Below are positions 1,108 to 29,456 of a stretch of 64,000 nucleotides of DNA, one piece after another. The notes beneath the pieces are model-generated. The model ran no database searches and had not been told where the DNA came from. It saw only the letters and a program-made list of their open reading frames with translations. A program made the position numbers and the translations under genes. Positions within the stretch are counted from its first letter, which is position 1, and each line of letters begins with the position of its first letter. The stretch is from NCBI RefSeq assembly GCF_015265475.1, contig NZ_CP054493.1:2170001-2234000 (forward strand). Direction: 5' to 3'. Source of the stretch: Candidatus Sulfurimonas marisnigri. Lineage in GTDB: Bacteria; Campylobacterota; Campylobacteria; Campylobacterales; Sulfurimonadaceae.

Positions 1108-2313
1108 TTGAGCAAACATGTAGTAATTATAGGTGGTGGATATGGTGGTCTTCGTGCCATAGAGTTTTTAGATAAATATGAAGATGTAAAGTTAACACTA
1201 ATTGACAAAAATCCATATCACTATCTTCAAACTGAAGCTTATGGATATGTAGCTGGAAGGTTTAATATGCATGACATTGCTATTAATCTCAGCAGTTGGT
1301 GTAGTGGCTTTAAAGAGAAAGTTCGTTTCATACACAAAGAAGTGACAACAATCGACTTCCAAAAGCAGAATATAGATTTAGAGAATATGGAAATAGCTTA
1401 TGACTATCTAATAATTGCAACAGGTGCTCAGACTAACTTTTTTTCATTTATAGATGGACTAAAAGAGCATAGTTATGGCGTTAAAAATCTAAAAAGAGCC
1501 TATTCATTCAGACAAAAATTTGAAGATATAATATATAAAAAACTACTAAATACAAAAGACACAAATGATGGTGAAGTAAATATCGTTATTGGCGGTGCCG
1601 GACTAAGTGGAGTTGAGATTGCTGCTGAAATGGCACATGTTATTGATGTTCACAGCAAAACAATTGGTGAAGCGGCAAAAGACATTAAAATATATCTTGT
1701 TGATGCAAGTGAAACCATACTTCCTGGTATGGGCAAATATACTATCTCTCATACAAAAAAAAGATTAGAAAAACTAGATGTAATAATTCTTACAAATACT
1801 TTCATAAACAATCTTGACGACTCGTATATATACTTTAGAGATGGTCAAAAACTGAACTACTCTTTCATGGTTTTTACTGGGGGAATTAAAGCAACCAAGC
1901 TAAACACTACAATCAATCATGACAAAAATAGAGTTGATCAACTTATCCCAGATTCAGAGCTAAATATACAAGGTAAAAAGAATGTGTTTGCTTTAGGTGA
2001 TTGCGTAGAGCTTAGAGATAGAAATGGCAATATACTTCCACCCACAGCACAAATAGCGGAAAAAAGTGCCGAGTATGTAGCAAAAACAATCAGAAAAAGA
2101 ATAGATGGCAATAAAACAAAACCATTCAACGGAAGTGTCGCTGGTGTTTTTGTTGCGCTTGGCGGCAATTATGCTGTTGGAGAGATGTTTAAATTTATAA
2201 AAGTAAAAGGCTACAAAGCCTATTTGCTTAAAAAAGCGATAACTAGTGCGTATCATTTTGGACTTCGTCTACGTATAAACAGCGGTTTTAAAAACAGAAT
2301 AAAAGAAACATAG
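1108..2313 (+). CDS. ndh: Type II NADH:quinone oxidoreductase (NDH-2-like flavoprotein)
   Basis: NDH-2 passes electrons from NADH to quinone without pumping protons, on the inner face of the membrane. The N-terminal FAD-binding glycine motif VVIIGGGYGG and a second dinucleotide motif (IVIGGAGLSG, near residue 160) are visible, as are ATGAQ and a late GDC..R plus PPTAQIAEKSAEY typical of the family. The C-terminal segment is basic and may touch the membrane. The open frame extends to a GTG at 1015, but those residues precede the FAD fold; the TTG at 1108 gives MSKHVVIIGGG and about 401 residues, the usual size. Start uncertain. A related sulfide:quinone reductase-type role is less likely. Confidence 0.8.
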   Translation: MSKHVVIIGGGYGGLRAIEFLDKYEDVKLTLIDKNPYHYLQTEAYGYVAGRFNMHDIAINLSSWCSGFKEKVRFIHKEVTTIDFQKQNIDLENMEIAYDYLIIATGAQTNFFSFIDGLKEHSYGVKNLKRAYSFRQKFEDIIYKKLLNTKDTNDGEVNIVIGGAGLSGVEIAAEMAHVIDVHSKTIGEAAKDIKIYLVDASETILPGMGKYTISHTKKRLEKLDVIILTNTFINNLDDSYIYFRDGQKLNYSFMVFTGGIKATKLNTTINHDKNRVDQLIPDSELNIQGKKNVFALGDCVELRDRNGNILPPTAQIAEKSAEYVAKTIRKRIDGNKTKPFNGSVAGVFVALGGNYAVGEMFKFIKVKGYKAYLLKKAITSAYHFGLRLRINSGFKNRIKET

Positions 2314-26735: not shown

Positions 26736-26757
26736 ATAGAGCCAAAAAAGGCTCTAT
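26736..26757 (-). terminator. Terminator after the porin gene
   Basis: ATAGAGCC and GGCTCTAT form a perfect 8-bp stem with a six-base loop, 25 bases after the porin stop, followed leftward by AAATTTTC. Confidence 0.65.
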
Positions 26758-26782
26758 TAGGAGAGTAAAATTACTGTATGGT

Positions 26783-28117
26783 TTAGAAAAAGAATTGAGT
26801 AGTTATTTTCATTTTCTCAACATCTTTGTCTCCTGTACTTGCACCGTACTCATCTTTTTGGTACATAAAACCAGCTTTGATTGTATTACCTTTTAGGTAC
26901 CAGTTCACACCGGCCATTTTTGATGTGAATTTATAATCTTCACCGGCAGCAGAATCTTCAAATTTATCCCAGCTCTCATATCTCACAAATGGAGCTATAT
27001 ATCCCAACTCTGGCATAACATATTCACTAAGTACATACCAACCAGATGATTTACCAGTTACGATAGTTGCAGCAGACCAATCTTTTACAACATCATCAAA
27101 TTTGAAGTACTCGCCTTGAATCATAAAGTTCTTATAGTGAGCAGAAGCTTCAAGATTAACTAGTTTATTATTTAATGTAACGCTATCAGCTGCACCATCA
27201 GCTTTAATCTCAGGAACAACCCAGTATGCAGCACCAAAAGAGAAGTGTTTACCTACTCCGAAGTATGTTTCTGTTTTTGAAGTCTCTTCCCAGCCGTCAA
27301 ATGGAGATAGTAGAATTTTACCACCGTAGAAAAAGCTTTGTTCAGTTATCTCTGATGTTTTTTTACCTTTTGCATCTAACAAAGAGGTTTCTTCTGTTGC
27401 ATCACCAAAAGCCAATTGGTAGTGAACTTTTTTATTTAAATCACCAAATACTTGAGCATTTGTACCACGACGGTTATGAGTAATAAACTGTGCTGCAGCA
27501 TCTGCAACTGCAGGGCGGTCATAAGCTATTGTGCGAGCTGATTTTATAGTTTCAGTACGTGAAACATCGATTTTTGCACGGAAAAGTTTAAAATTTACTA
27601 AAGATGAACCAAAAGGTTTTTTGATTTGAACATATGCATCACCAACGTTAAATTCATTCTCACCACTTTGTTGGTAGTTTGCTTTATCATTTCTAACATC
27701 CATTACAAATGAAGTCCACTTGTTAAAGCCGGCTGCAACCTCAAAACGAACACGACGAAGGTATGCATCATTTATACTTGTGTCAGTTTTTGAAACATCA
27801 TTATAATCAGTCTCTACATTTTCAAAAGTACCCTGAATACGAACACCAGCTTTTAACCACATGTCAGAACTATCATCTGCTACAAACTTCATATTGATAT
27901 GTGTTTGTTTACCATAAAGAAAATCTGGAGAATTTTTATCTACAATTGTTATTTTGCTAACATTTGATTTACTCTCATTTGCCATTTCAAAAGCTTTACG
28001 ACCCTCAGCAGGTGTAGTAAAGAGTTGACCTTTGTCATCTACATAAAATTGTGCAGCACTTAAGCTAGCTGAACCAATTGCTAAAACCGCCATTGTTGAA
28101 AGAACTATTTTTTTCAT
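26783..28117 (-). CDS. Outer-membrane porin, phosphate-selective O/P type
   Basis: A 444-residue beta-barrel with a signal peptide (MKKIVLS..SLSA). The barrel has alternating strands and ends with the C-terminal FFF. The pattern VRIQGTFENVETDY then RRVRFEVAAGFNKWTSFVMDVR is that of porin O/P proteins. Downstream of pstS in the same direction but with its own Pho-box-type promoter. Phosphate or polyphosphate uptake across the outer membrane is inferred from the family and the promoter. Confidence 0.75.
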   Translation of the reverse strand: MKKIVLSTMAVLAIGSASLSAAQFYVDDKGQLFTTPAEGRKAFEMANESKSNVSKITIVDKNSPDFLYGKQTHINMKFVADDSSDMWLKAGVRIQGTFENVETDYNDVSKTDTSINDAYLRRVRFEVAAGFNKWTSFVMDVRNDKANYQQSGENEFNVGDAYVQIKKPFGSSLVNFKLFRAKIDVSRTETIKSARTIAYDRPAVADAAAQFITHNRRGTNAQVFGDLNKKVHYQLAFGDATEETSLLDAKGKKTSEITEQSFFYGGKILLSPFDGWEETSKTETYFGVGKHFSFGAAYWVVPEIKADGAADSVTLNNKLVNLEASAHYKNFMIQGEYFKFDDVVKDWSAATIVTGKSSGWYVLSEYVMPELGYIAPFVRYESWDKFEDSAAGEDYKFTSKMAGVNWYLKGNTIKAGFMYQKDEYGASTGDKDVEKMKITTQFFF

Positions 28118-28149: not shown

Positions 28150-28182
28150 ATTATAAAATAGTTTGGTTACATAATGATTACA
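28150..28182 (-). promoter_or_regulatory. Pho-box-like promoter of the porin gene
   Basis: Read leftward: TGTAAT-CATTA-TGTAAC (28182-28166), 10 bases, then -10 TATAAT (28155-28150). The two 6-mers repeat every 11 bases and sit where a -35 would be, as in PhoB-activated promoters. Confidence 0.65.
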
Positions 28183-28286
28183 GTTATACACCTACACAAA
28201 ACAGGTTAAAAGAACTATAACAAGGTTGTTTTAGAGAGTTTATGGAATAGGTTGTAGAGTAGTGTTTATGAATACATATAAAGGAG

Positions 28287-28315
28287 GATTCTTGCAATCA
28301 GTAGTTACAAGAATC
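28287..28315. repeat. Hairpin 1 of a tandem pair
   Basis: GATTCTTG / CAAGAATC stem extended by AA/TT past one C-A mismatch, with loop TCAGTAG on the plus strand. Sister of the hairpin 45 bases on; two base pairs differ by compensatory change. Confidence 0.7.
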
Positions 28316-28331
28316 ATAGGAGAATACATGT

Positions 28332-28360
28332 GGTTCTTATAATCAGTAGTTATAAGAACC
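28332..28360. repeat. Hairpin 2 of a tandem pair
   Basis: GGTTCTTATAA / TTATAAGAACC, a perfect 11-bp stem with the same loop TCAGTAG. Followed on the plus strand by TAGGAGAA, as is hairpin 1. It lies 27 bases past the pstS stop in the minus direction. No T-run, so not a normal terminator. Confidence 0.7.
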
Positions 28361-28387
28361 TTAGGAGAAGAAAATGAAATTTAATGA

Positions 28388-29392
28388 TTATTGTATATTT
28401 GCAGCCCAATACTCCCTAATCATGTTTTTTGTAGCTTCAGGAAGAGGAATATAACCTAACTTTTTAGCAGATTTGTCACCATTTTTAAAAGCATAGTCAT
28501 AAAACTCTATTGTTTTTTTATTCATCTCAGATTTTTCTGTTGGAAGCAAGATAAATGTTGCTGCAACAATCGGGTAAGAAGTATCGCCTGGTTGTAGAGC
28601 TAGCATTGCATAGAAGTTATCCTCTTTAGTCCAACTTGCATATTTTGCAGCAGCTTTAAAATTATCTTCGTTTGCTACAACCCATTTGCCGTTCGCAGTT
28701 TTAAGTACAGCAGCAGAGAGGTTGTTTTTCTCTTTATATGCGTTTTCAATGTAACCGATAGAGTAAGGAGTTTGCTTAACCAAGTTAGCAACACCTTCAT
28801 TACCTTTTCCACCAATACCAACAGCCCAGTCAATTGCTTTACCAGTTCCATAAGTATCTTTCCAGTTTTTAGAACTTCCACTTAGGTAATAAGTAAAGTT
28901 AAAAGTAGTCCCTGAACCATCTGAACGGTGAACTACAGTAATTTTTTGGTTTGGTAGCTTAATACCTGCATTGTTAGCAGCTATAGCAGCATCATTCCAC
29001 ATAGTGATTTTTCCCGCAAAAATATCTGCAACAACATCATTGCTTAATTTTAATGTCTCATCAGCAATGCCATCAACATTAAATGCTATAACGATTGAGC
29101 CGATAACTGCTGGAAACTGTAAAAGTTTAGCTTTTGCAAGTTTTTTAGAGTCTAATGGTTTATCAGATGCACCAAAGTCTACAATTCTCTTTGCAATCTG
29201 TTTGATTCCGCCGCCTGAACCGATTGACTGGTAGTTAACACGGTTTTTTGTATCTTTTTTATATGAAAATGCCCAATCATAATACAGGGGAGCTGGGAAA
29301 GATGCGCCTGCACCATTGATTTTATCTGAAGCGAATGACGTACTTATTGAAGCAGCTGTAACAAGTGCAACTAAAGCTAATTTCTTTAACAT
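28388..29392 (-). CDS. pstS: Phosphate ABC transporter substrate-binding protein
   Basis: Periplasmic phosphate receptor. A signal peptide (MLKKLALVAL..TSFA) precedes the family segments INGAGASFPAPLYYDW, YQSIGSGGGI, DFGASDKPL and VHRSDGSGTTFNF, which form the phosphate site. The ATG at 29392 is used; a longer frame to 29422 would begin inside the probable transcription start. It is separated from pstCAB by the ppk2 gene and is transcribed away from them. Confidence 0.9.
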   Translation of the reverse strand: MLKKLALVALVTAASISTSFASDKINGAGASFPAPLYYDWAFSYKKDTKNRVNYQSIGSGGGIKQIAKRIVDFGASDKPLDSKKLAKAKLLQFPAVIGSIVIAFNVDGIADETLKLSNDVVADIFAGKITMWNDAAIAANNAGIKLPNQKITVVHRSDGSGTTFNFTYYLSGSSKNWKDTYGTGKAIDWAVGIGGKGNEGVANLVKQTPYSIGYIENAYKEKNNLSAAVLKTANGKWVVANEDNFKAAAKYASWTKEDNFYAMLALQPGDTSYPIVAATFILLPTEKSEMNKKTIEFYDYAFKNGDKSAKKLGYIPLPEATKNMIREYWAANIQ

Positions 29393-29423
29393 TTTTGTAC
29401 CTTTTGTTTTTTTAAGATGCAAA

Positions 29424-29456
29424 ATTATAAATGCGGAAGGTTACATGTAGATTACC
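29424..29456 (-). promoter_or_regulatory. Pho-box-like promoter of pstS
   Basis: Read leftward: GGTAAT-CTACA-TGTAAC (29456-29440), then 10 bases, then -10 TATAAT (29429-29424). Same repeat, period and spacing as at the porin gene. Confidence 0.65.

Follow-up and report, generated by a model that had tools for sequence, protein, structure and literature searches.

A tandem hairpin with repeated CUCCU motifs in the pstS 3'UTR of Candidatus Sulfurimonas marisnigri, a putative Pho-coexpressed RNA

The window analysed here is a stretch of 64,000 nucleotides from the genome of Candidatus Sulfurimonas marisnigri (NZ_CP054493.1, positions 2,170,001 to 2,234,000), a single contig of 2,488,728 bases (genome G000). 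It carries a gene for a periplasmic phosphate-binding protein, for which PstS is a label taken from the gene neighbourhood, and a phosphate-selective porin gene downstream. Both genes are read from the minus strand, so that its RNA is the relevant one and the gap between them is the pstS 3'UTR followed by the porin promoter region. We took the ATG at 29392 as the start of pstS, where the list of open reading frames had a TTG at 29422. A PstS with 90% identity occurs in a Sulfurimonas MAG. Both genes are preceded by Pho-box-like sites, and strings similar to TGTAATCATTATGTAACC precede the porin gene in relatives. The features, in the order of the minus strand, are as follows.

29439..29456, minus strand: Pho-box-like site GGTAATCTACATGTAACC before pstS, 1 mismatch
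28388..29392, minus strand: pstS (PF12849 PBP_like_2, E 2.5e-38), with the element in its 3'UTR
28363..28368, minus strand: first UCUCCU motif, 20 nt past the pstS stop codon, a motif enriched in pstS 3' flanks
28332..28360, minus strand: proximal hairpin GGTTCTTATAA-CTACTGA-TTATAAGAACC, 11 pairs, from the fold and family covariation
28318..28323, minus strand: second UCUCCU motif, within the 16-nt single-stranded linker separating the hairpins
28287..28315, minus strand: distal hairpin GATTCTTGTAA-CTACTGA-TTGCAAGAATC, 11 pairs including one G-U, from the fold and family covariation
28282..28286, minus strand: third CUCCU, directly after the distal hairpin, at the U-tract place of related terminators
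28165..28182, minus strand: Pho-box-like site TGTAATCATTATGTAACC before the porin gene, downstream of the hairpins, 0 mismatches
26783..28117, minus strand: phosphate-selective porin gene (PF07396 Porin_O_P, E 1.1e-10), downstream of the hairpins
26736..26764, minus strand: porin 3'UTR with UCUCCU, one base and an 8-pair hairpin ATAGAGCC-TTTTTT-GGCTCTAT, an architecture similar to that of the pstS 3'UTR

A sequence-only reading of this DNA had described two hairpins at 28287-28315 and 28332-28360, spaced 45 bases, and both are present as claimed. The copies are 86% alike over a 36-base unit with an identical 7-base loop. The differences between them on the plus strand were confirmed: pair 2 changes from A-T to G-C, pair 8 from G-C to A-T, and pair 9 from C.A to T-A. 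The last had been called a C-A mismatch, which is correct for the plus strand, but in the minus-strand RNA it is a G-U pair and both stems consist of 11 continuous pairs. Similarly, the flank TAGGAGAA is conserved as stated, but it reads UUCUCCUA in the transcribed RNA, with an unpaired CUCCU before, between and after the hairpins. The 112-nt minus-strand RNA (28276-28387) folds at -24.8 kcal/mol, compared with -10.25 ± 2.43 kcal/mol for 200 dinucleotide shuffles (z -5.99), none of which was as stable. Its predicted fold is two stem-loops and nothing else, and all three CUCCU are predicted to be single-stranded in the MFE structure. The reading had also noted that no T-run follows. No strong one is present, but the distal hairpin continues on the minus strand into the weakly U-rich CTCCTTTATA and passes a lenient terminator scan (one found on this strand vs. 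a shuffled mean of 0.3). Both stems are stable; no U-tract follows the proximal hairpin, and many relatives have proper U-tracts.

To analyze the conservation of the element, we searched for PstS in two sets and obtained matches in 43 of 60 genomes and in 102 of 135 from the genus. Regions were fetched for the best 80 of 183 named relatives and for 40 more places, so that part of the matching genomes was read, and 140 pstS 3' flanks were kept after repeated or short rows were dropped. The closer PstS group comprises 62 flanks with at least 73% identity, some of which are not named Sulfurimonas. In many species, the corresponding place holds a hairpin with the related stem CTTGCAA...TTGCAAG, and in many relatives (e.g. 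L029, L165 and L166) this hairpin is a textbook terminator with a U-tract. The window hairpins are related to the pstS Rho-independent terminators of other Sulfurimonas by position and by the CTTGCAA/TTGCAAG core, but are doubled and have no proper U-tract. At four loci (L154, L161, L162 and L172), there is no U-tract and the stem is flanked by CUCCU on each side; at L155, CUCCU is only behind the stem. The loop had been called invariant, which is true of both copies in the window and in the close relative G062, but the loop differs in the other members, and over the whole family the loops include CTACTGA, CTACTA, CTCTCA, CTTCTCA, CTTGACA and others. The sequence-only reading had named loss of pairing in orthologous gaps as grounds for its refutation; none was found within the hairpin family, but several gaps, e.g. 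L025 and L027, are without such a hairpin, and some hold quite different content.

Tandem hairpins were seen in four genomes: that of the window, G062, G104 and G017. These form two sister pairs in an unresolved part of the PstS tree, and one old duplication may lie behind all four. The window and G062 are identical over about 120 nt at this place, with BLAST identity of 90.5% on the pstS side and 88.5% in the piece comprising the hairpins and porin. We count this identity in favour of the preferred reading below, but recombination could also explain it. In G062 (L151), an insert of about 117 bases with two short palindromes lies between the pstS stop and the hairpins. It looks like a small mobile palindromic repeat, and L031 has comparable palindromes in its pstS 3' region. 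Several pstS 3' flanks among L112-L136, mostly from Sulfuricurvum, have a different two-structure region, in which strings such as TTCTCCTTCTTCAAT...CCTTAAGTTT recur ahead of a second hairpin and which may be the Sulfuricurvum counterpart.

For covariation, we aligned 27 hairpins from 24 loci, picked by eye at the corresponding place, so that pairing was partly selected for; hairpins of other sequence in other flanks were omitted. All 11 pairs were changed on both sides, which happened in 0 of 500 shuffles. Cells changed on both sides numbered 59, compared with 17.0 ± 3.9 in shuffles, and 96.6% of cells were paired, compared with 78.5% in shuffles and 34.7-54.2% with partners slid; the genomes compared are related species, and these counts are not independent. 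On the pstS strand, 20 cells in 13 rows were G-U and 3 cells in 3 rows were A-C (binomial 0.0005, kinship ignored), an excess that selection acting on the minus-strand RNA would be expected to produce. The covariance check suggested by the earlier reading, together with this G-U over A-C bias on one strand, supports its proposal of selection on RNA pairing. Among 61 hairpins, not all of one family, in the 62 closer flanks, the window's included, 18 had a sense-side T-rich tail and one had the A-rich lead expected for the other strand. Taken together, the fold stability and the family covariation argue that the hairpins are not due to chance.

We then considered an element acting at the DNA level, be it palindromic sites for transcription factors or a repeat of the dispersed kind (REP, MITE), given that the intergenic gap holds two inverted repeats and leads to a porin gene preceded by a Pho-box-like site. 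However, the stems change with pairing kept and with G-U preferred over A-C on one strand. Moreover, a covariance model, R1, built from the 27 hairpins with their flanks, gave 39 bits for the two hairpins of the window, with the following hits in the same genome at 20.1 and 15.1 bits; a REP or dispersed palindromic repeat with many genomic copies was not found with R1 in this genome. We therefore disfavour a DNA-level element as very improbable. Across the 135 genomes, R1 matched 44, of which 27 at pstS (many being training sequences) and 17 only elsewhere; four of these 17 were inspected and look like unrelated hairpins or terminators. At one of the four, L241 (G079, 1430-1600, minus strand), UCUCCUAC and then a hairpin lie behind a 469-residue outer-membrane-like ORF, with no PstS match adjoining. 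Since L241 carries both UCUCCU and a hairpin, the module may extend past pstS and its porin. Rfam 15 at gathering score gave no matches in the window or in eight loci, seven of them pstS loci, and a search of the region at E up to 1 gave two sub-threshold models, Histone3 and mir-3015. A DNA search of 60 relatives with the 131-base element returned, beyond its own locus, only 17-46-base matches (27 of the 60 genomes, own included), suggesting divergence too rapid for the element to be traced at the DNA level. We also rejected as too unspecific a pattern of loop plus stem allowing 2 mismatches, since it matched all 60 genomes (31 sites in the own genome, 12 in the reversed control).

Next, we examined the motif beside the stems, defining the pstS 3' flank as the first 120 nt after the stop. 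In the 62 closer flanks, CTCCT occurred 50 times, compared with 13.0 ± 3.8 in shuffled flanks (maximum 23), and at least two copies were found in 17 flanks (shuffled mean 1.3, maximum 5); AGGAG occurred once. The motif was present in 30 of these flanks and absent from 32. The distant PstS group (31 flanks) had 19 copies vs. 7.3 shuffled, with at least two in 6 flanks vs. 0.8, and the 23 Sulfuricurvum-type flanks showed no clear excess (12 of 23 vs. a shuffled 7.1, maximum 13). Among the ten possible pentamers composed of three C and two T, the count for CTCCT reached 50 and the overlapping TCTCC 47, and the others ranged from 6 to 27. The most enriched hexamers of the closer group were of three kinds: the terminator stem, CTCCTA/TCTCCT and the Pho-box string. 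CTCCT had a mean predicted unpaired probability of 0.88 over the 50 sites, compared with 0.55 for background and 0.67 for other such pentamers. These comparisons indicate that what is specifically conserved is not the loop but the single-stranded UCUCCU next to the stems. A composite CATT-N0-8-TCTCC, chosen after inspecting the sequences and not leaned on, was present in 8 of 62, 8 of 31 and 12 of 23 flanks (shuffle means 1.6, 0.8 and 0.9; maxima 7, 3 and 5).

Elsewhere the doubled motif was infrequent. A first control gave at least two CTCCT in 2 of 118 flanks. In a second, covering other 3' flanks of the fetched Sulfurimonas loci and including loci fetched via the TTAGGAGA pattern, two CTCCT were present in 6 of 226, five of which follow a porin resembling that of the window by eye. 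The sixth (L264), the sole non-porin case, comes from a pattern-fetched locus, where the TTAGGAGA pattern in reverse complement accounts for one of the two sites; by our reading, its upstream gene is thiol-peroxidase-like. Nine intergenic TCTCCT occur in the window: three follow a same-strand stop (two after pstS, one after the porin gene), two near the window edge were left unassigned, and four of the nine lie 6-7 nt from an opposite-strand ORF start and are reverse complements of ribosome sites. In 45 porin 3' flanks, Sulfuricurvum included, the motif is less strict, with raw counts of 17 flanks holding CTCCT at least once and 6 at least twice. Many porin 3' flanks have other C/U-rich strings in its place, and those of L071, L074, L083, L099 and L106 carry C/U-rich motifs mostly beside or near a small hairpin.

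The last observation bears on a plainer explanation, in which the element only forms or protects the 3' end of the pstS mRNA, as a weak terminator or an exonuclease block after later Rho-dependent termination; the C/U-rich single strands would then serve Rho loading or terminator spacing, with no target in trans. C/U-rich strings in the same place of many porin flanks would fit this, as would the U-tract terminators formed by the related hairpin in many relatives and the terminator-like distal hairpin on the minus strand. Rho prefers C-rich, G-poor unpaired RNA, and RNA of this kind is present here. In the available part of a study of hairpin pairs after stop codons, such pairs are described as common termination units, although its clusters are less than 15 nt apart and the spacing here is 16 nt (PMC8355165). 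However, neither Rho nor an exonuclease block needs the exact CUCCU, and pentamers of the same composition, overlapping TCTCC apart, are rarer: TCCTC, with 6 copies, is below its shuffled mean of 13.7 and CCTCT, with 16, is near its mean of 13.2. In addition, CTCC lies up to 14 nt upstream of 12 of 18 pstS terminators and of 1 of 11 other terminators of the same loci, a small control. We regard 3'-end formation as a serious possibility, short of an even chance and nearly as likely as a trans-acting RNA.

A protein could also read the module. A site for an RNA-binding protein or RNase recognising the hairpin and UCUCCU in Pho mRNAs, and controlling their decay or localisation, would be consistent with a motif that recurs next to stems of differing sequence, in the 3'UTR of pstS as well as in that of the porin gene. 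We consider it unlikely, as no candidate protein emerged: the best Hfq match in the own genome reached 12.9 bits, below the cut-off, in a search that did detect Hfq in 6 of 14 control genomes. A CsrA-type site is itself unlikely, as the transcribed strand is without GGA, and the 112-nt minus-strand RNA, with no GGA, does not resemble a CsrA-sponge RNA. On the plus strand, the region reads AGGAGAAGAAAATGAAA, a perfect-looking start site, raising the question of an antisense feature with small ORFs behind AGGAG ribosome sites. Except for the antisense of PstS itself, these frames keep no constant position, length or sequence in the relatives that we examined. The plus-strand ORFs were rejected for want of conservation, and we hold an antisense feature to be barely credible.

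The reading that we prefer, tentatively and with less than even confidence, is that the pstS 3'UTR is a putative Pho-coexpressed RNA whose anti-Shine-Dalgarno motifs are predicted to act in trans. CUCCU is the complement of the Shine-Dalgarno core AGGAG. The two stem-loops would be a doubled version of the 3'-end hairpin on the pstS mRNA of related species, with CUCCU occupying the place where related terminators have their U-tract. A tail of about 110 nt would be made together with pstS under phosphate starvation. Cleavage or trimming at the hairpins would turn it into a stable RNA, and its unpaired UCUCCU would base-pair with the AGGAG Shine-Dalgarno sequences of other mRNAs, holding back their translation. 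Computation supports the strand, the relation to the 3'-end hairpin, the covariation, the enrichment and accessibility of CUCCU and the linkage to two Pho genes; transcription, release as a discrete RNA and pairing to targets are inferred. The earlier suggestion of a small RNA in the Pho regulon is plausible, since the element follows pstS and Pho-box-like sites precede both genes, but it looks like a duplicated terminator-type 3'-end hairpin rather than a free-standing pair.

To look for targets of an anti-Shine-Dalgarno tail, we searched for complementary start sites. The pattern TTAGGAGA-N4-10-ATG gave 23 matches in the own genome vs. 12 in reversed controls, but over the 14 genomes searched there was no excess (188 vs. 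175 reversed, by our sums). This result led us to place slightly less weight on the trans-acting reading and on the broader proposal below, and slightly more on a protein site. The 22 own-genome matches besides the element fall in 20 stretches, 11 of which have an open frame of at least 180 residues, with perfect pairing of 8-11 nt. The own-genome sites include ORFs that look PNPase-, FrdB-, ThiC- and LepB-like, which would be hypothetical targets. At L310, one of the 20 stretches, near 375503 of the own genome, TTAGGAGA precedes the start codon of the PNPase-like ORF, with a 9-nt complement to the pstS 3'UTR. A 19-base complement allowing 3 mismatches gave 15 sites, one being the element itself, vs. 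11 in the reversed control. AGGAG lies upstream of 6 of 56 window ORFs. The ribosome sites of pstS and porin genes are mostly AAGGA or AAGGG, with AGGAG in 1 of 55 and 0 of 38 (starts picked automatically), making self-pairing of these mRNAs unlikely; pairing of CUCCU with its own pstS or porin ribosome site was set aside on this ground. A broader proposal, which we see as rather unlikely, is that the 3'UTRs of Pho mRNAs in Sulfurimonas (pstS and porin) form a joint Hfq-independent anti-Shine-Dalgarno system, in which abundant CUCCU tails would quench translation of mRNAs with AGGAG sites at phosphate depletion while pstS and porin mRNAs, with AAGGA/AAGGG sites, escape. If true, the tails of nutrient-uptake mRNAs would re-programme translation.

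We compared the element with known systems, each represented by the available part of its report. CJnc230 of Campylobacter jejuni is an sRNA of 98 nt downstream of flgE (PMC11187230). Like the element after pstS, it belongs to this phylum and is encoded downstream of a coding gene. We equate it with the RNA called FlmE in that paper. Its anti-Shine-Dalgarno sequence is CCUU within one 12-nt stretch, whereas in the element CUCCU is repeated and lies beside both hairpins. According to the available part of that paper, CJnc230 has its own promoter downstream of the gene start and serves flagella; the element, a putative RNA, is linked to phosphate. The element shares with it a same-strand position directly downstream of a coding gene and, by prediction, an unpaired anti-Shine-Dalgarno motif flanked by stem-loops; with related hairpins in 24 loci and CTCCT in 30 of the 62 closer flanks, not all relatives have this arrangement. 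NfeR1/alpha-r14 of rhizobia is, as far as its available text describes it, a nutrient-stress RNA with several hairpins whose stems vary and one anti-Shine-Dalgarno motif repeated unpaired, likewise in the element (PMC10746234). It differs in being alphaproteobacterial, with the motif CCUCCUCCC and three hairpins, whereas the motif of the element sits outside the loops, and in its control by LsrB and NtrC, vs. the element as the tail of a Pho mRNA. The CcsR1-4 RNAs of Rhodobacter sphaeroides are likewise consecutive homologues, and they are released from an upstream gene's 3'UTR by processing, as proposed for the element, but, in the available part of the report, are four separate sRNAs that interact with Hfq and are controlled by stress sigma factors (PMC8307010). 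On the best reading, the element would be built like CJnc230 and NfeR1.

The element is a genuine RNA structure that is conserved and linked to Pho genes, and a predicted addition to an already known kind of RNA, the 3'UTR-derived anti-Shine-Dalgarno sRNA. Within our partial coverage of the literature, we found no published report of a pstS 3'UTR RNA, an anti-Shine-Dalgarno CUCCU RNA or a Sulfurimonas sRNA matching it. Our Campylobacterota sRNA comparisons come from partially available accounts of two pathogens, C. jejuni (PMC11187230) and H. pylori, which is described as being without Hfq and ProQ (PMC8322730); the pstS 3'UTR would be a non-pathogen test case. If regulatory, the element would link phosphate limitation to RNA control and show how doubling can make a regulatory module out of a terminator hairpin. 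Should it serve 3'-end formation only, the family still offers a natural series from a terminator to a hairpin without a U-tract. Separately, L243 (G094, 1026-1911) carries two tandem units of about 313 bases and a partial third, each with an AAGCCCT...AGGGCTT hairpin and a T-run on the minus strand. With no ORF of 100 codons and no Rfam match within them, these units are possibly repeated RNA genes.
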